DNA of 64,000 bases, taken from contig WLPJ01000001.1 of assembly GCA_009698815.1 (NCBI GenBank), positions 93,567 to 157,566 on the forward strand, written 5' to 3'. The DNA comes from Actinomycetota bacterium (GTDB lineage Bacteria > Actinomycetota > Actinomycetes > Nanopelagicales > Nanopelagicaceae). The position numbers were made by a program, and so were the translations under genes. The notes beneath the pieces are model-generated. The model saw only the letters and a list, made by a program, of their open reading frames with translations, had not been told where the DNA came from and did not search any database. This document shows positions 8,530-64,000 of the stretch, piece after piece (positions within the stretch are counted from its first letter, which is position 1; each line of letters opens with the position of its first letter).

Positions 8530-9969
8530 ATGCGTCGCGCGAAGATTGTTTGCACAATGGGTCCAGCAGTTGATTCTCCAGAAAAAGTTCGGGAGTTAAT
8601 CGCAGCCGGCATGAATATGGCGCGGCTAAATCTTTCTCACGGCGGACATCCAGAGCATCAAGCGCGAATGGATCGCGTACGCGAAGCTGCCAAAGAGGCC
8701 GGCGTACCGATCGCGATCTTGGTTGATTTACAAGGTCCCAAGATTCGCTTAGCGAGATTTAAAGCAGGTCCACATGATTTGGTTCGTGGGGATATTTTCA
8801 CAATCACAACCGATGAAGTAGAAGGCACAAAGGACCGTGTTGGTACTACCTACAAAGGCCTACCGGGGGATTGCAAACCAGGAGATCGCATCCTGATCGA
8901 TGATGGAAAAGTAACTGTCGAAGTTGTTGAAGTAAAAGGCAACGATGTTGTTACAAAGGTGATCGAACCTGGCGCAGTAAGCAATAACAAGGGAATCAAT
9001 CTGCCGGGCGTTGCCGTTTCAGTCCCTGCGCTATCTGAAAAAGATATGGATGATCTGCGCTGGGGGCTAAAGGCCGGCGCTGATTTCATCGCCTTATCAT
9101 TTGTACGTAGCGCTGATGACATTGTCGATGTACACCGCATCATGGACGAAGTTGGGATTCGCATTCCAGTCATCGCAAAAATCGAAAAGCCGCAAGCCGT
9201 GGAAAATTTGCAGGGAATCGTAAACGCCTTCGATGGCATCATGGTTGCAAGAGGTGATCTGGGTGTGGAACTTCCTATTGAAGAAGTGCCTTTGGTACAA
9301 AAGCATTGCATCGAGTTAGCGCGCGAGGCTGCCAAGCCGGTAATTGTGGCGACGCAAATGTTGGATTCCATGATTACAAATTCCCGTCCGACTCGCGCCG
9401 AAGCAACAGATTGCGCCAATGCGGTGCTCGATGGTGCTGATGCTTTGATGCTTTCAGGTGAAACATCTGTCGGTGAATTTGCAATTGAAGCGGTGCAAAC
9501 TATGGCGCGCATTATTTCGCATACCGAACAAGGCGGCATGGACATGATTCGCCCAATGAAATCAACGCCAAAGACAAAAGGTGGCGCGATCACTAAGGCG
9601 GCAGCTGAGGTTGGTGCAATTGTTGGCGCAAAGTACCTTGTGACTTTTACACAATCTGGTGACTCGGCGCGACGCACTGCACGTTTGCGCTCACCAATTC
9701 CTATTTTGGCATTTACCCCAGAGATTGGAACCTATAACCGAATGGCCCTTGACTGGGGAGTAGAGCCTGAGTTAACGCCGGTGGTTAAACACACCGATGA
9801 AATGGTTATGCAAGCCGATACATTGTTATTAAGTACTAAGCGGTGCACTGAAGGCGAACTCGTTGTGATCGTCGCCGGATCTCCTCCTGGAATTCCGGGA
9901 TCAACTAATGCGATGCGCGTTCACCGCGTAGGCGATGCCGTGGGTGGCGCAGCTCCTGCTTACCGTTAA
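8530..9969 (+). CDS. pyk: Pyruvate kinase
   Basis: The enzyme converts phosphoenolpyruvate and ADP to pyruvate and ATP, the last step of glycolysis. The 479-residue length is usual for bacterial pyruvate kinase. Visible motifs are the N-terminal TMGPA start of the TIM barrel, LNLSHG, the substrate and metal site IAKIEKPQAVENL...MVARGDLGVELP, and the small C-terminal domain ending VAGSPPGIPGSTNAMRVHRVG. The gene is separated from gltD by 79 bases that contain a 13-base palindrome and a TANNNT box, so it probably has its own promoter. A tRNA gene begins 30 bases after its stop. No terminator is visible between pyk and that tRNA, so read-through is possible. Confidence 0.97.
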   Translation: MRRAKIVCTMGPAVDSPEKVRELIAAGMNMARLNLSHGGHPEHQARMDRVREAAKEAGVPIAILVDLQGPKIRLARFKAGPHDLVRGDIFTITTDEVEGTKDRVGTTYKGLPGDCKPGDRILIDDGKVTVEVVEVKGNDVVTKVIEPGAVSNNKGINLPGVAVSVPALSEKDMDDLRWGLKAGADFIALSFVRSADDIVDVHRIMDEVGIRIPVIAKIEKPQAVENLQGIVNAFDGIMVARGDLGVELPIEEVPLVQKHCIELAREAAKPVIVATQMLDSMITNSRPTRAEATDCANAVLDGADALMLSGETSVGEFAIEAVQTMARIISHTEQGGMDMIRPMKSTPKTKGGAITKAAAEVGAIVGAKYLVTFTQSGDSARRTARLRSPIPILAFTPEIGTYNRMALDWGVEPELTPVVKHTDEMVMQADTLLLSTKRCTEGELVVIVAGSPPGIPGSTNAMRVHRVGDAVGGAAPAYR

Positions 9970-9999
9970 GATTTGCTCTGAAAGTTAATAAGTAACAAC

Positions 10000-10072
10000 G
10001 CCTCGGTACTCCAACGGTAGAGAGGGCAGTCTCAAACACTGCATAGTGTCGGTTCGAATCCGACTCGAGGCA
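10000..10072 (+). tRNA. Atypical tRNA with CAA anticodon and short variable loop
   Basis: A full 73-base cloverleaf can be drawn. The acceptor stem GCCTCGG pairs with TCGAGGC (last pair G-U). The D stem CTCC/AGAG has three pairs plus a C-A mismatch. The anticodon stem is GCAGT/ACTGC with loop CTCAAAC, so the anticodon is CAA (Leu, codon UUG). The variable region ATAGT is only five bases. The T arm is GTCGG-TTCGAAT-CCGAC and the discriminator is A73. CCA is not encoded. Bacterial tRNA-Leu normally has a long class-II variable arm, so a class-I body with a leucine anticodon is unusual. The pdtaR ATG begins after a single C. It could be a true UUG-decoding tRNA-Leu or a tRNA-like regulatory element. 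Confidence 0.82.
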
Positions 10073-10073
10073 C

Positions 10074-10676
10074 ATGAGTACCAATAGCGCCAATATAAAA
10101 CCTGCGATCCGAATTTTGGTTGCCGAGGATGAAGCGCTGATCCGTATGGATTTAGTTGAAATGTTAATTGAGGCAGGCTACGAAGTCGTCGCAGAAGCAT
10201 CAGATGGCGCACAGGCAATTGAACTCGCCCAATTACATAAACCAGATTTAGCAATTCTTGATGTAAAGATGCCGATCCTTGATGGAATTTCGGCTGCTGA
10301 AAAAATTATTGCCATTGCACCAGTACTTATGTTGACCGCTTTTTCACAGCGCGAACTTGTGGAACGAGCCCGTGATGCCGGTGTGATGGCCTATGTTGTA
10401 AAGCCATTTTCAATTGGTGATTTAGTTCCGGCTATCGAAATTGCAATCAGCAGGCATTTGCAGATGCGAACCCTGGCCGATGAAGTTGCTGACTTGCATG
10501 AACGACTTGAAACTCGCAAAATTATTGATCGCGCTAAAGGAATTTTAATGCAGGCGCTAAATCTGGCAGAACCTGAGGCTTTCTCGTGGATTCAAAGGGC
10601 TGCCATGGATCGCCGCCTAACCATGAAACAGGTCGCCCAAGCGGTTATCTCCCCAGATGCCGTTCCTGGCCGATAG
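10074..10676 (+). CDS. pdtaR: ANTAR-domain response regulator (PdtaR type)
   Basis: The protein has 200 residues. Residues 12-130 form a CheY-like receiver with acidic pocket E18/D19, phospho-acceptor D63 in LAILDVKMP, the switch Thr in MLTAF, and conserved Lys in VVKPF. Residues about 140-195 form an ANTAR RNA-binding domain (RKIIDRAKGILMQALNLAEPEAFSWIQRAAMDRR). ANTAR proteins bind paired hexaloop hairpins and prevent transcription termination. The mycobacterial orthologue PdtaR works with the histidine kinase PdtaS, which is not in this window. The ATG lies one base after the tRNA 3' end, with no room for an independent ribosome-binding site outside the tRNA. Expression may therefore depend on tRNA processing, or on translation from a transcript in which the tRNA is the leader. 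Confidence 0.9.
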   Translation: MSTNSANIKPAIRILVAEDEALIRMDLVEMLIEAGYEVVAEASDGAQAIELAQLHKPDLAILDVKMPILDGISAAEKIIAIAPVLMLTAFSQRELVERARDAGVMAYVVKPFSIGDLVPAIEIAISRHLQMRTLADEVADLHERLETRKIIDRAKGILMQALNLAEPEAFSWIQRAAMDRRLTMKQVAQAVISPDAVPGR

Positions 10677-10734
10677 GCCAAATCTGACCGCAATAACGTA
10701 ATCAAACCTTTATATTTGTAGGCTCAACTTCTAC

Positions 10735-10763
10735 TTGATAGATCGCGGGTCTGGCTTTAAACT
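10735..10763 (+). promoter_or_regulatory. Candidate sigma-70-type promoter of livK
   Basis: A TTGATA -35 box and TAAACT -10 box are separated by 17 bases, about 50 bases before the livK start. The 5' leader would contain the 12-base palindrome at 10775. Confidence 0.45.
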
Positions 10764-10774
10764 TTCAGCCTCCC

Positions 10775-10786
10775 TGTCCCGGGACA
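10775..10786. promoter_or_regulatory. Perfect 12-base palindrome in the livK leader
   Basis: TGTCCCGGGACA lies just after the expected transcription start and before the ribosome-binding site. That is a typical place for a repressor operator. I do not recognise the regulator. Confidence 0.4.
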
Positions 10787-10814
10787 CATGCAAGAAAAAA
10801 CAGGAAGGCAATAC

Positions 10815-11978
10815 ATGAACAAGAAGATCAAAGCTTCTGCTGCCATTGTCGCCGCACTTGCCCTATCACTAGGCGCATTCGCTGCAACATCTGCATCAGC
10901 TGCGACAAAGACTTATACACTCGCATACCAAGGTCCACTTTCCGGTGGAGAAGCATCAACAGGTACCGATGAGCAAAATGGCGTTAAGTATGCAATCAAA
11001 GTTTGGGAAGCTGCTAACCCAGGTATCAAGATCAACCTCGTCTCAGTAGATGATGAAGGAGATCCAGCTGTTGCATCAAAAGTTGCTCCAGGTGTTGGCG
11101 CAAACAAGAAGATCATCGGTCTTGTTGGCCCTGCATACTCAGGTGCAACAATTGCATCATTGCCTTACTACAAGGCAGGTAACCTCACAGTTATCTCACC
11201 ATCAGCAACTCGCGTATCTCTAACAGATCCAAAGAGTCCAACTGTTAAGTCAGATTACGGTCGCCCAATTTTCCACCGCGTCGTAGCAACTGATGACAAG
11301 CAGGGTCCAGCACTTGCGAAGTTTGCAACAAAGGGCATTGCATCAGCCAAGGTCTTCGTTTTCGATGATCAGTCTTCATACGCTGTTCCACTACGTGGAT
11401 ATGTAGAAGCTGCAATCAAGAAGATTTCAACAGCTTCCCTCGTTGGTACTGGAGATTCAGTAATTAACACAACAACTGATTACAGCCCAACAATTGCTAA
11501 GATCAAGACATCTGGTGCAAACGTTGTTATCTACACCGGTTACTACAGCGCAGCTGCAATTTTCATAAAGCAGCTTCGTGACTCAGGATCAACAGCAGTA
11601 TTTGCTGGTGGCGACGGAGTCTTCAACCAGGAGTTTGCAAAGCTTGCTGGTAAGTCAGGAGAAGGCGCCCTTCTAACAGGTGTTGCCGGTCTTGCTGACG
11701 TTGATGCAACGATTGAGGCTGATTTCAAGGCCAAGATTGGTGTTTCATCAGGCGTTTACGCAGTTGAATCAATCGATGCAGCGAACATCTTCCTTTCAGG
11801 TATCAAGAATGGAAAGACAACTCGCGCAGCGATGAATAAGTGGGTAAAGGCCTATAACTTCAAGGGTATTGCTGGAGCGACTATCAAGTTCAACCAACAT
11901 GGCGATATCTCAGAAGGTGGCTTTGCTGGCTTCCTAGTAACAGGCGGAAAGCTTGTTAATAAGGGTCCCGTAGCCTAA
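10815..11978 (+). CDS. livK: Branched-chain amino-acid ABC transporter, substrate-binding protein
   Basis: From ATG 10815 the protein has 387 residues. A Sec signal peptide (MNKKIK, hydrophobic core, ATSASA) is followed by a Peripla_BP_6-type domain beginning TYTLAYQGPLSGGEASTG. ATG 10815 is preferred over the track's ATG 10788 because AGGAAGG precedes it at good spacing and the signal peptide starts there. The whole protein lacks cysteine, so there is no lipobox; see findings. Codons are strongly biased (tca, gca, aag), as in highly expressed genes. A strong terminator follows, and permease and ATPase genes lie downstream. The family binds Leu/Ile/Val but also other amino acids or amides, so the substrate is not certain. 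Confidence 0.9.
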   Translation: MNKKIKASAAIVAALALSLGAFAATSASAATKTYTLAYQGPLSGGEASTGTDEQNGVKYAIKVWEAANPGIKINLVSVDDEGDPAVASKVAPGVGANKKIIGLVGPAYSGATIASLPYYKAGNLTVISPSATRVSLTDPKSPTVKSDYGRPIFHRVVATDDKQGPALAKFATKGIASAKVFVFDDQSSYAVPLRGYVEAAIKKISTASLVGTGDSVINTTTDYSPTIAKIKTSGANVVIYTGYYSAAAIFIKQLRDSGSTAVFAGGDGVFNQEFAKLAGKSGEGALLTGVAGLADVDATIEADFKAKIGVSSGVYAVESIDAANIFLSGIKNGKTTRAAMNKWVKAYNFKGIAGATIKFNQHGDISEGGFAGFLVTGGKLVNKGPVA

Positions 11979-11999
11979 CTCTGAAGTAATTGCATGACC

Positions 12000-12047
12000 C
12001 CAACGGGCGTCTTAATTCGCGAGAATTACGGCGCCCGTTGGCTTTTA
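12000..12047 (+). terminator. Intrinsic terminator after livK
   Basis: CCAACGGGCG pairs perfectly with CGCCCGTTGG, with an inner AATTC/GAATT pairing, and CTTTT follows. It separates the abundant binding protein from the permease genes, so partial read-through would set their ratio. Confidence 0.85.
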
Positions 12048-12068
12048 ATTCATCCAAAATTAAAGTAG

Positions 12069-12093
12069 ATTCCACCTTCTTGATTAGTGGAAT
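12069..12093. promoter_or_regulatory. Inverted repeat upstream of livH
   Basis: ATTCCAC and GTGGAAT are seven-base arms separated by 11 bases, between the livK terminator and livH. It could be an operator for a promoter serving livHMGF, but I see no convincing -35/-10 pair. Confidence 0.35.
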
Positions 12094-12143
12094 TGAGCAA
12101 CAAATAGGCCGCCTAGCAGCCACAATCTTTATAAAGGGGCAAG

Positions 12144-13094
12144 ATGTTTGATGTATTTATCGATCAGTTCTGGCAACTGACGTTTTCTGGTATCTCACTT
12201 GGATTTATCTATGTCTTGATCGCACTTGGCTACACCATGGTTTATGGAGTGCTTCGCATGATCAACTTTGCCAACTCTGAAATTTTTATGTGGGGCACAT
12301 TCGGCGCAATTGTTGCCAGCCGTGACCTCTTTAAATATACACAAACTTCTGATCCTGTAACTGGGCCGAAACTAGTCTTGGTTCTGGTTGTGCAACTCTT
12401 TGCTGCCATGGCCTTTGCTGGTTTAGTCGCTGTACTTGTCGAATTCGTCGCCTATCGTCGGTTGCGCGCTCGTGGCACAAACCGTTTGGCAACTCTGATT
12501 TCTGCAATCGGAATGTCAATAGTGCTCTCTGAAGTTATGCGCCTGCTAACCGCCTCCCGCCCCGTCGGTTCACCACGAATTCTTGAAAAAATTATTTTGA
12601 CTGAAATTTGGGGAGCGCAGATTCGTCTGGATACCTTAATTACTATTCTCGCCGCTGGCGCAATTTTTATTATTCTAGAACGTTTCGTAAAACTCTCTCG
12701 CATGGGTAAAGCAATCCGCGCGGTATCGATGAATGAAGACGCCGCCAAATTGATGGGAATTAATTTAAACCGGGTAATTACCGTGACATTCCTTGTTGGT
12801 GGTCTTGCAACTGGTGCAGCAGCGTTCTTCTACGTAACAGTTTATGAGTACACCAAATTTAATATTGGCTTCACAATGGGTCTGGCCGCCTTTACCGCCG
12901 CAGTACTTGGTGGAATCGGCAATATCCGTGGCGCTTTCTTCGGGGGAATAGCCCTTGGGTTAGCCGAGGTATACGCAGCATCAATTCTTGGAACCCAGTG
13001 GAAATCAGTAACAATATTCATAATTCTCGTTCTCGTACTTCTCTTTAAGCCATCGGGCTTATTCGGAGAAGCTGTCACTCAGACAAGGGCATAA
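12144..13094 (+). CDS. livH: Branched-chain amino-acid ABC transporter, permease LivH
   Basis: LivH is the first inner-membrane permease of the importer. The 316-residue protein has about eight hydrophobic helices. Family features are the N-terminal GISLGFIYVLIALGYTMVYGVLRMINFA and the cytoplasmic coupling loop RAVSMNEDAAKLMGIN, followed by GLAAFTAAVLGGIGNIRGAFFGG. An AAAGGGG ribosome-binding site precedes the ATG. It lies 165 bases after livK, beyond the terminator, and only ten bases before the chosen livM start, so livH-M-G-F form one tight unit. Confidence 0.93.
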   Translation: MFDVFIDQFWQLTFSGISLGFIYVLIALGYTMVYGVLRMINFANSEIFMWGTFGAIVASRDLFKYTQTSDPVTGPKLVLVLVVQLFAAMAFAGLVAVLVEFVAYRRLRARGTNRLATLISAIGMSIVLSEVMRLLTASRPVGSPRILEKIILTEIWGAQIRLDTLITILAAGAIFIILERFVKLSRMGKAIRAVSMNEDAAKLMGINLNRVITVTFLVGGLATGAAAFFYVTVYEYTKFNIGFTMGLAAFTAAVLGGIGNIRGAFFGGIALGLAEVYAASILGTQWKSVTIFIILVLVLLFKPSGLFGEAVTQTRA

Positions 13095-13104
13095 GGTGAA
13101 CTTT

Positions 13105-14133
13105 ATGAAAAACTTTAACCTTCGCGACTTCGGAGCAGGTATTTGGGAGCGCGCAAATCGCCCACAGCGCGTGGCAATTGCTATCTCTGCAATTGTTCTA
13201 GCATCACTAATGCCCTTCGCAGGCGGTTCTTTTCTAGCAACTCCTATCGCAGCCTATGACGCAGTACTTGTTTATCCAGTAGCAATTTTCGTACTGATGT
13301 CACTTGGTTTAAACATTGTTGTTGGAAAATCTGGAATGCTCGATCTTGGGTACGTTGCATTCTTTGCAATCGGTGCTTACACAATGGGTTTCCTTGGAAT
13401 GCACACCAGCCTAAATACTTGGGAGATCATGCCGATTGGTATTGGCCTGGCAATGTTGGCCGGGGTTCTACTAGGCATTCCAACGCTTCGTCTGCGCGGT
13501 GACTACTTAGCAATTGTTACCTTGGGCTTTGGTGAAATCATTCGAATTGTTGCGCTAAACGTATCTTGGACAAATGGCCCAAATGGAATTTCAGGAATTC
13601 CTATGCCTCCAGATTTAGGACCAATCAAATTTAGACTTGATGATCAAAAAGGTTTCTATTGGATCGTCCTAGTAATGATTCTGCTAACTATCTGGATGAT
13701 TCGCCGTTTATCTGTTCGCCGCCCGGGACGAGCATGGGAAGCGATTCGCCAGGATGAAGATGCAGCAGAACTCATGGGAGTTCCAACATTTAAATACAAG
13801 ATGTGGTCATTCACACTCGGCGCTGCGGTCGGTGGCGCTGCTGGTGTTCTCTACGGGTCAAAGAACCTTTTCATCGCGCCAGAAATGTTCACGCTAAACG
13901 TCTCAATTCTGATTTTGGCCTGCGTGGTCTTTGGTGGAATCGGAAACATCTGGGGCGTAATTGTGGGCGGTGTCGTCCTGGGCTACCTGCCGGATCGAAT
14001 TCGTTTTATTTCTGATGCGCGATTACTTGTCTTTGGTCTGGTTCTAATCGTGGTTATGAACTTCCGCCCAGATGGACTCTTACCACGTAAGAAGCGCGAA
14101 AAAGCAATCGTAAAGAAAGGGGCTGATGCGTAA
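13105..14133 (+). CDS. livM: Branched-chain amino-acid ABC transporter, permease LivM
   Basis: LivM is the second permease, pairing with LivH to form the channel. From ATG 13105 it has 342 residues with many hydrophobic helices. The family motifs are SLGLNIVVGKSGMLDLGYVAFFAIGAY, LGIPTLRLRGDYLAIVTLGFGEIIR and the coupling loop EAIRQDEDAAELMGVP. The track opens at GTG 13096, but AAGGTGA then works as the ribosome-binding site of ATG 13105, which I prefer. The stop overlaps the livG start in TAATG. Confidence 0.92.
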   Translation: MKNFNLRDFGAGIWERANRPQRVAIAISAIVLASLMPFAGGSFLATPIAAYDAVLVYPVAIFVLMSLGLNIVVGKSGMLDLGYVAFFAIGAYTMGFLGMHTSLNTWEIMPIGIGLAMLAGVLLGIPTLRLRGDYLAIVTLGFGEIIRIVALNVSWTNGPNGISGIPMPPDLGPIKFRLDDQKGFYWIVLVMILLTIWMIRRLSVRRPGRAWEAIRQDEDAAELMGVPTFKYKMWSFTLGAAVGGAAGVLYGSKNLFIAPEMFTLNVSILILACVVFGGIGNIWGVIVGGVVLGYLPDRIRFISDARLLVFGLVLIVVMNFRPDGLLPRKKREKAIVKKGADA

Positions 14134-14909
14134 TGTCTAAGACACTACTTAAGCTCGAAAATCTAACTATGAAATTTGGTGGCGTCACCGCACTGGACGA
14201 AGTTAACCTCGAAATTAAAGAGGGCGAAATCCTTGCACTCATTGGACCAAACGGTGCGGGCAAGACAACAGTCTTTAACGTAATCACTGGTGTTTATCAG
14301 GCAACATCGGGATCAATAACATTTGATGGCCGTAACTTGGCAGGTCGCAAACGCTACAAGATTACCGGCCTTGGTATTGCACGTACTTTCCAGAACATTC
14401 GCTTGTTTGGAGATATGACAACTTTAGAGAATGTCATCACCGCAACTGATGTTCATAAGAAGAGTGGACTTGTTGGTGCGCTATTTGGCACACCTCGTTC
14501 ACGTCGTGAGGAACGAGAAAATCGTGCCAAAGCTTTCGAGATTCTGCAATTCATTGGCATTGACGAATACTCAGATCGCCTAGCAAAGAACTTGCCATAC
14601 GGTGTGCAGCGCCGTTTAGAGATCGCCCGCGCAATGGGAACATCACCAAAGTTATTACTACTTGATGAGCCAGCCGCTGGTTTTAATCCACAAGAGAAAG
14701 TGGATTTAGCGGCAACGATCAAGAAGGTTCGCGATGCTGGATACACCATTCTGCTTATCGAGCATGACATGTCGCTCATTATGGGAATCTCAGATCGAGT
14801 TATTGTTCTTGACTTTGGCCAAAAGATCGCTGATGCCAAACCAGCTGAAGTACAAAACGACCCTCGAGTTATCGAGGCTTACTTAGGAGTACCTGCAGAT
14901 GCATCTTGA
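14133..14909 (+). CDS. livG: Branched-chain amino-acid ABC transporter, ATPase LivG
   Basis: LivG is one of the two cytoplasmic ATPases that power the LivHM channel. The 258-residue protein has Walker A GPNGAGKTT, a Q-loop in RTFQNIRLFGDMT, a signature region NLPYGVQRRLEIARAM (diverged from LSGGQ, as is common in LivG), Walker B KLLLLDEPAAGF and the H-loop LIEHDMS. The ATG overlaps the livM stop and the 3' end overlaps livF by 11 bases, so subunits are translationally coupled. Confidence 0.94.
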   Translation: MSKTLLKLENLTMKFGGVTALDEVNLEIKEGEILALIGPNGAGKTTVFNVITGVYQATSGSITFDGRNLAGRKRYKITGLGIARTFQNIRLFGDMTTLENVITATDVHKKSGLVGALFGTPRSRREERENRAKAFEILQFIGIDEYSDRLAKNLPYGVQRRLEIARAMGTSPKLLLLDEPAAGFNPQEKVDLAATIKKVRDAGYTILLIEHDMSLIMGISDRVIVLDFGQKIADAKPAEVQNDPRVIEAYLGVPADAS

Positions 14910-15618
14910 AGTTAAAGATCTACATGTTCACTACGGCAAGATTGAAGCGATTAAGGGCGTCTCAATTGTTGTAAATGAAGGTGAAATCGTCACGCTCATC
15001 GGTGCAAATGGTGCCGGTAAAACAACGATGCTTAAGACCATCTCTGGTCTGCGTCCGGCATCTAGCGGACAGATCATCTTTAACGGGCAAGATATCACTA
15101 GCGTGCCAGCACATAAGCGCGTCGATCTTGGGCTTTCACAAGCTCCTGAAGGTCGCGGAATTTTCCCGGGTATGACAGTTTTGGAAAACCTCGAAATGGG
15201 CAAGTTTCACCGGCATGATCGCAAGAGTGAGATGTCTGAAGATCTGGAAAAGATTTACACACTCTTCCCACGTTTGAAGGAGCGCACGTCTCAAGCAGGT
15301 GGAACTCTTTCAGGTGGAGAACAGCAGATGCTGGCAATTGGTCGCGCGCTTATGGCACGCCCTAAGGTTTTATTGCTGGATGAGCCATCAATGGGACTTG
15401 CTCCGCAGATGATCGCCAATATTTTCCGCATCATTACCGAGATCAACAAGACCGGTGTAACAATTCTTCTAGTTGAGCAGAATGCACAGCAAGCGCTGCA
15501 ACGCGCACACCGTGCATATATTCTTGAAACTGGAAATGTTGTTAAGGAAGCTAAGGCTTCAGATCTTCTTAACGATCCTGCAGTACGCGAGGCATACCTC
15601 GGTACTGGCGCTCACTAG
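14899..15618 (+). CDS. livF: Branched-chain amino-acid ABC transporter, ATPase LivF
   Basis: LivF is the second ATPase of the importer. The 239-residue protein has Walker A GANGAGKTT, signature LSGGEQQMLAIGRAL, Walker B KVLLLDEPSMGL and H-loop LLVEQNA. The LivF-type APEGRGIFPGMTVLENL is present. It is the last gene of the liv unit and ends seven bases before the convergent thioesterase gene. No intrinsic terminator is visible in that gap, so transcripts from the two strands probably overlap. Confidence 0.94.
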   Translation: MHLEVKDLHVHYGKIEAIKGVSIVVNEGEIVTLIGANGAGKTTMLKTISGLRPASSGQIIFNGQDITSVPAHKRVDLGLSQAPEGRGIFPGMTVLENLEMGKFHRHDRKSEMSEDLEKIYTLFPRLKERTSQAGGTLSGGEQQMLAIGRALMARPKVLLLDEPSMGLAPQMIANIFRIITEINKTGVTILLVEQNAQQALQRAHRAYILETGNVVKEAKASDLLNDPAVREAYLGTGAH

Positions 15619-63823: not shown

Positions 63824-64000
63824 TCTATGGAGAGTTTGATCCTGGCTCAGGACGAACGCTGGCGGCGTGCTTAACACATGCAAGTCGAGCGATGAGATCA
63901 CTTCGGTGATGGATTAGCGGCGAACGGGTGAGGAACACGTGAAGAATCTGCCTTCAACTCTGGGATAACTCCGGGAAACCGGGGCTAATACCGGATATGA
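63824..64000 (+). rRNA. rrs: 16S ribosomal RNA, 5' part (cut by window end)
   Basis: The universal 5' region GAGTTTGATCCTGGCTCAG and GAACGCTGGCGGCGTGC is present, then a short V1 loop (GATCACTTCGGTGAT), GGCGAACGGGTGAGGAACACGTG and CCGGGAAACCGGGGCTAATACCGG. The last two are common in Actinobacteria. The start is set by counting back from GAGTTTGATC and could be off by a few bases. About 177 bases are in the window. Confidence 0.95.

Follow-up and report, generated by a model that had tools for sequence, protein, structure and literature searches.

The window, a 64,000-nucleotide stretch of contig WLPJ01000001.1 from an Actinomycetota bacterium of the family Nanopelagicaceae, carries a transfer RNA (tRNA) gene, tRNA-Leu(CAA), directly upstream of a pdtaR-like regulator gene. 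This gene very probably encodes a functional elongator tRNALeu that reads UUG on a class-I body, is a member of a class-I tRNALeu(UUR) group with a wide distribution, and stands at a place beside pdtaR where one tRNA class has repeatedly replaced the other.

ARAGORN predicted a single tRNA in the window, tRNA-Leu(caa) at 10000-10073, and Rfam RF00005 matched 10000-10072 over the full length of the model with 54.2 bits. The cloverleaf comprises a 7-bp acceptor stem, a 3-bp D stem, a 5-bp anticodon stem, a 5-nucleotide variable loop, a 5-bp T stem and the discriminator A73; a canonical class-II variable arm has at least 10 nucleotides, and the loop here has five. These results bear out an earlier note on this DNA, made from the sequence alone, which had described a class-I body with a leucine CAA anticodon. 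The same note had suggested checking for a class-II alignment with an overlooked long arm; none was found, and such an arm is ruled out by the ARAGORN call and by the full-length RF00005 match, which lacks one. As the note had also read from the sequence, CCA is not encoded at 10000-10072, and it is likewise absent from many other tRNA genes of this genome.

The D arm has a fully paired CUC/GAG stem and, as its loop, the ten bases CAACGGUAGA; the class-II leucine tRNAs of the genome are built on this plan too. In the window tRNA the 3-bp stem is followed by C13.A22, whereas the class-II leucine tRNAs have the same stem and G13.A22. The C-A mismatch that had been placed in the D stem therefore exists as C13.A22, but it counts as a mismatch only if a 4-bp stem is forced, and it is ordinary in the set to which the tRNA belongs. 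A broken D stem is ruled out; the arm is of the leucine type, and it is kept and covarying in homologues.

Recognition by leucyl-tRNA synthetase (LeuRS) is well defined in E. coli, where the enzyme depends on A73, A15-U48, G18G19, A20a and the elbow and does not need the long arm; human mitochondrial tRNALeu(UUR) is also charged without one (PMC9976931). The window tRNA combines a leucine anticodon with A73 at 10072, as expected of a LeuRS substrate, and possesses A14, A15-U48, G18G19, an A20a-type D loop and the elbow residues U54, U55, C56 and A58 (AA-C-GGUAGA and UUCGAAU). Because the elements on which LeuRS depends are kept and the long arm is not needed, the tRNA is likely to be charged with leucine, judging from its sequence.

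Homologous genes form a coherent set, defined by a YAA anticodon, a 5-nucleotide loop ending in AGU, C13.A22, U8A9, a 3-bp D stem and A73, all of which are found in the window tRNA. Among 98 distinct class-I UUR sequences, none of them selected by pattern scan, A73 is present in 97, A14A15 in 95 and U48 in 95; the 3-bp D stem and U8A9 each occur in 97 and C13.A22 in 92, and in the variable loop A46 and G47 are found in 88 and 91, respectively. Compensatory changes occur in all four stems of the class-I homologues, and A73, A15-U48 and the leucine-type D arm are kept across classes and phyla. U8A9 and C13.A22 mark the class-I set and are not among the parts on which E. coli LeuRS depends.

The distribution of the set was surveyed using covariance model R1, built from nine class-I tRNALeu(UUR) genes with that of the window among them. 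Counted among the matches listed, hits above ~72 bits were present in 79 of 297 Actinomycetota genomes and in 22 of the 26 genomes of the window's class. Class-I tRNALeu(UUR) was also found in 8/121 Chloroflexota genomes (seed included), among 249 Pseudomonadota genomes only in the seed, and as single cases in other phyla among the matches listed. Carriers named among the listed matches of a contig scan, which samples the distribution rather than counting it, include Streptomyces, Mycobacterium, Gordonia, Nocardia, Nocardioides, Bifidobacterium, Corynebacterium and Candidatus Planktophila versatilis. The tRNA of the last is identical to that of the window, and its flank is identical to the flank in one genome assigned to the window's genus; the source of the window is therefore most likely a Planktophila. 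Class-I tRNALeu(UUR) is thus widespread in Actinomycetota and patchy in Chloroflexota and a few other phyla.

In the window's own genome (1.35 Mb, 22 contigs, 92% complete, 37 tRNA matches), a listing of the tRNA-Leu genes, as the earlier note had proposed, revealed that the UUR-reading CAA and TAA tRNAs are class I and the CUN-reading TAG and GAG tRNAs are class II. Pattern searches of 11 genomes of the family found exactly one CAA gene apiece, always class I, and TAA genes of class I only, one or two each (two in G433). The searches were also able to catch class-II spacing, and no class-II YAA gene was found in these 11 genomes; the few longer-gap matches were not tRNA-like in appearance. 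A single LeuRS scored above the family cut-off in each of the 15 genomes tested, the window's genome included. UUG accounts for 18% of the leucine codons in 47 open reading frames of the window. The simplest reading of this gene complement is that the window tRNA would serve in the cell as a dedicated UUG reader. As to whether it is the sole one, which the earlier note had wished to see settled, no other CAA tRNA was found in the 11 family genomes, and wobble might let the TAA tRNA read UUG as well.

The linkage to pdtaR extends well beyond the family. In a synteny sample of 110 loci of the window's class (L102-L211), which were picked from pdtaR and not from the tRNA, tRNALeu(CAA) adjoins pdtaR in 109, so that the suspected conservation of the tRNA(CAA)-pdtaR order is confirmed; several genomes of other Actinomycetota classes also have a class-I CAA tRNA near pdtaR. 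The adjoining tRNA is class I at 73 loci and class II at 36. It is divergent from pdtaR at 93 loci, runs in the same direction at 15 (11 of which come from the window's family) and could not be assigned a relative strand at one. On the PdtaR tree, the tRNA class changes at least 20 times, or at least nine times when only starred branches are counted, compared to ~30 for shuffled labels, and both classes occur within each of four genera.

Between class-I and class-II bodies of a single genus, 20-32 of 67 positions are different. For 64 of the 73 class-I CAA genes, at least one class-I TAA gene is closer than any class-II CAA gene; the exceptions are eight genes of family f87 and one tie. Because the bodies diverge so widely within a genus and class-I CAA genes lie nearer TAA genes, whole-gene exchange appears to be a better explanation than in-situ loss of the arm for most of the class switching beside pdtaR. 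Deletion of the variable arm in place is not favoured as a general route to class I, and it is possible in family f87. This family (L113-L118, L120, L128) has a class-I tRNALeu(CAA) of another type, with the loop UGNNU, a D loop ending in GGCAAA and a body nearer class II, and the CAA tRNA of Mycobacterium phage Bonray (L486) resembles it.

Phage genomes carry similar genes. The class-I queries matched 116 (CAA) and 194 (TAA) phage records; the matches, inspected in part, had CAA, TAA, TAG or GAG anticodons and short loops, and some may be other tRNAs. Class-I leucine tRNAs for CUN codons (GAG, TAG) were seen in phages at L486, L490 and L048. At L285, L282, L305 and L310, several class-I leucine tRNAs (CAA, TAA, CAG, GAG, AAG) are clustered and are perhaps phage-derived.

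Altogether, the class-I tRNALeu(UUR) genes retain what LeuRS recognises, namely A73, A14, A15-U48, the D/T-loop elbow pairs and the GG-YAGA D loop, and have lost the long arm, for which E. coli LeuRS has no need. We propose that a single LeuRS would charge the class-I UUR tRNAs as well as the class-II CUN ones. The gene holds a fixed chromosomal place beside pdtaR in Actinomycetes, and class-I and class-II versions have been swapped there many times. Whole tRNA genes were probably exchanged, and phages are a plausible source of the exchanged copies.

Several points weigh against this interpretation. The genome is only 92% complete, so that another UUG reader could be missing from it; ten family genomes rated at least 99% complete agree with a single class-I CAA gene. 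PdtaR is a short protein, and many branches of its tree are weak. Class I may have had more than one origin, since the eight f87 CAA genes are nearer class II, and the phage route is circumstantial.

The coordinates of the tRNA, its parts and its neighbours are collected in Table 1. The start of a 16S rRNA gene (Rfam RF00177) lies at 63824-64000 and is cut by the window end.

Table 1. The tRNA-Leu(CAA) gene, its parts and the neighbouring genes in the window.
Feature	Coordinates	Strand	Evidence
tRNA-Leu(CAA), class I, 73 nucleotides, CCA not encoded	10000..10072	+	ARAGORN; Rfam RF00005, 54.2 bits; own model R1, 91.8 bits (window sequence part of the model)
Leucine-type D arm: 3-bp stem CUC/GAG, C13.A22, A14A15, GGUAGA loop	10009..10024	+	Sequence, homologues, covarying stem
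Anticodon loop CUCAAAC; anticodon CAA at 10033-10035	10031..10037	+	ARAGORN, sequence
5-nucleotide variable loop AUAGU (A46 G47 U48; U48 able to pair with A15)	10043..10047	+	Sequence, class-I homologues
Discriminator A73	10072..10072	+	Sequence; A in 97/98 class-I homologues
GAGG, putative Shine-Dalgarno-like site for pdtaR, inside the acceptor stem	10067..10070	+	Sequence only; function inferred
Pyruvate kinase (pyk), 30 bases upstream of the tRNA	8530..9969	+	Pfam PF00224, PF02887
pdtaR-like response regulator with ANTAR domain	10074..10676	+	Pfam PF00072, PF03861
liv-type ABC importer	10788-15618		Best NCBIfam matches, all below curated cut-offs

The immediate surroundings of the gene agree largely with the earlier note. 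An ANTAR regulator one base downstream was correctly recognised, with the pdtaR ATG at 10074 and Pfam Response_reg and ANTAR domains in its product. The branched-chain amino-acid importer named as a further neighbour holds in so far as the best NCBIfam matches are liv-type, but all of them fall under the curated cut-offs.

In the window's family the tRNA immediately precedes pdtaR and is transcribed in its direction, and in the window a single C at 10073 separates A73 from the ATG. The two genes stand too close for a terminator or promoter between them, which implies either a processed, near-leaderless pdtaR mRNA or a promoter inside the tRNA. No sigma-70-like promoter was found just before the window's tRNA, and pyk, the tRNA and pdtaR may form one transcript in the window, because the 30-base gap after pyk (9970-9999) holds no clear promoter. 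Co-expression of tRNALeu(CAA) with pdtaR is possible in this family. A stronger version holds that in Nanopelagicales the cutting of the tRNA 3′ end yields a pdtaR mRNA with a one-base leader, and that tRNA processing or the tRNA promoter sets the level of PdtaR; the tRNA gene would then act as a 5′ processing signal for a conserved regulatory gene. This idea is compatible with an elongator tRNA and adds a function to it; we regard it as doubtful. It is consistent with the single-base spacing between A73 and the pdtaR ATG, which 21 of 25 distinct family loci share despite variation in the next codons, with the shared strand and the lack of both a terminator-like site and space for a separate promoter in between, and with the reported abundance of leaderless mRNAs in an actinobacterium (PMC3848588). 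Some relatives (L105, L108, L109, L110 and L087), in which pyk lies farther away, have a TACGAT-like box ~10 bases ahead of the tRNA, which fits as well. However, the arrangement is confined to the window's family, the tRNA being divergent in 93 of the 108 class loci with known strand, and even within the family the pdtaR start has moved away from the tRNA at four loci. Moreover, no RNase Z above the family cut-off was found in 11 genomes, and energy folding of the tRNA with the pdtaR leader was no better than shuffles (z -0.32).

The earlier note had gone further and proposed a tRNA-like sensor, whose charging would inform PdtaR and the liv importer about the supply of leucine. The ANTAR regulator and liv-type genes do adjoin the tRNA, and the linkage of tRNALeu to pdtaR is kept across the class. 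Yet the linkage persists while the class and strand of the tRNA change freely, and an RNA that can be inverted or replaced beside a constant pdtaR is unlikely to be read by PdtaR as a specially shaped molecule. Every translational leucine identity feature visible in the sequence is kept, and the window tRNA is the only CAA tRNA in the 11 family genomes. In addition, a liv-type gene stands beside pdtaR only in family loci among 30 long-flank loci, with a few further cases beyond that sample. Hairpins resembling an ANTAR target were not found either: such RNAs consist of two stem-loops with hexanucleotide loops in which A1 and G4 are conserved (PMC8164766), and the loops here have 7-10 nucleotides. 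An Rfam search of 9700-10900 detected no ANTAR-target RNA, with one sub-threshold match on the opposite strand of the tRNA gene. The sensor proposal thus went unsupported and is very improbable.

Least credible of all is a decayed or misread tRNA, i.e. a mutated anticodon on another tRNA type or a pseudogene, given the compensatory changes in all four stems, the conservation of the leucine-type D arm, A73 and A15-U48, and the lack of a replacement CAA gene in the family genomes; homologues and covariation likewise rule out a chance tRNA-like sequence.

In a 2020 review of non-canonical tRNAs, tRNALeu is placed in class II (PMC7609411), and a study of mycobacteria reported that an additional tRNA cluster contains a tRNALeu(TAG) with a short loop (PMC6582537). 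The open full-text literature, subscription journals being outside the scope, yielded no account of class-I tRNALeu(UUR) as something that bacteria regularly have; the set is undescribed in that sense, and such phage genes are already annotated as tRNA-Leu. If class-I tRNALeu(UUR) is normal in Streptomyces, Mycobacterium, Bifidobacterium and freshwater actinobacteria, a natural bacterial LeuRS accepts both architectures, which would offer a natural test of the requirements of LeuRS and EF-Tu. The pdtaR locus, where the classes were swapped many times with pdtaR unchanged, amounts to a natural experiment, and a clean one, on the exchange of tRNA genes, in which phages may have taken part. It is also a warning for annotation methods that require a long arm for leucine.

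Compared to known systems, the window RNA resembles ANTAR-target RNAs in standing beside an ANTAR protein gene, but it has a tRNA fold and not a pair of hexanucleotide-loop hairpins. The leucine tRNAs of phages and phage-like clusters (for example those of phages Alone3, Bonray and Trina) are likewise class I, with a leucine anticodon and mostly an NNAGU-type loop; however, they sit beside a normal copy and include TAG and GAG, whereas the chromosomal genes are mainly CAA and TAA. Animal mitochondrial tRNALeu(UUR) is another UUR leucine tRNA without a long arm, charged via A73 and A14 (PMC9976931), but it is organellar and served by its own LeuRS, and we claim no relationship. The E. coli-type class-II tRNALeu shares with the window tRNA the leucine anticodon, A73, A14, A15-U48, the GG-YAGA D loop, the 3-bp D stem and the elbow pairs, whereas the window tRNA has a loop of five nucleotides in place of the long arm, U8-A9 in place of U8-G9 and C13.A22 in place of G13.A22. 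In other Actinomycetes, the class-II tRNALeu occupies the same genomic place beside pdtaR.
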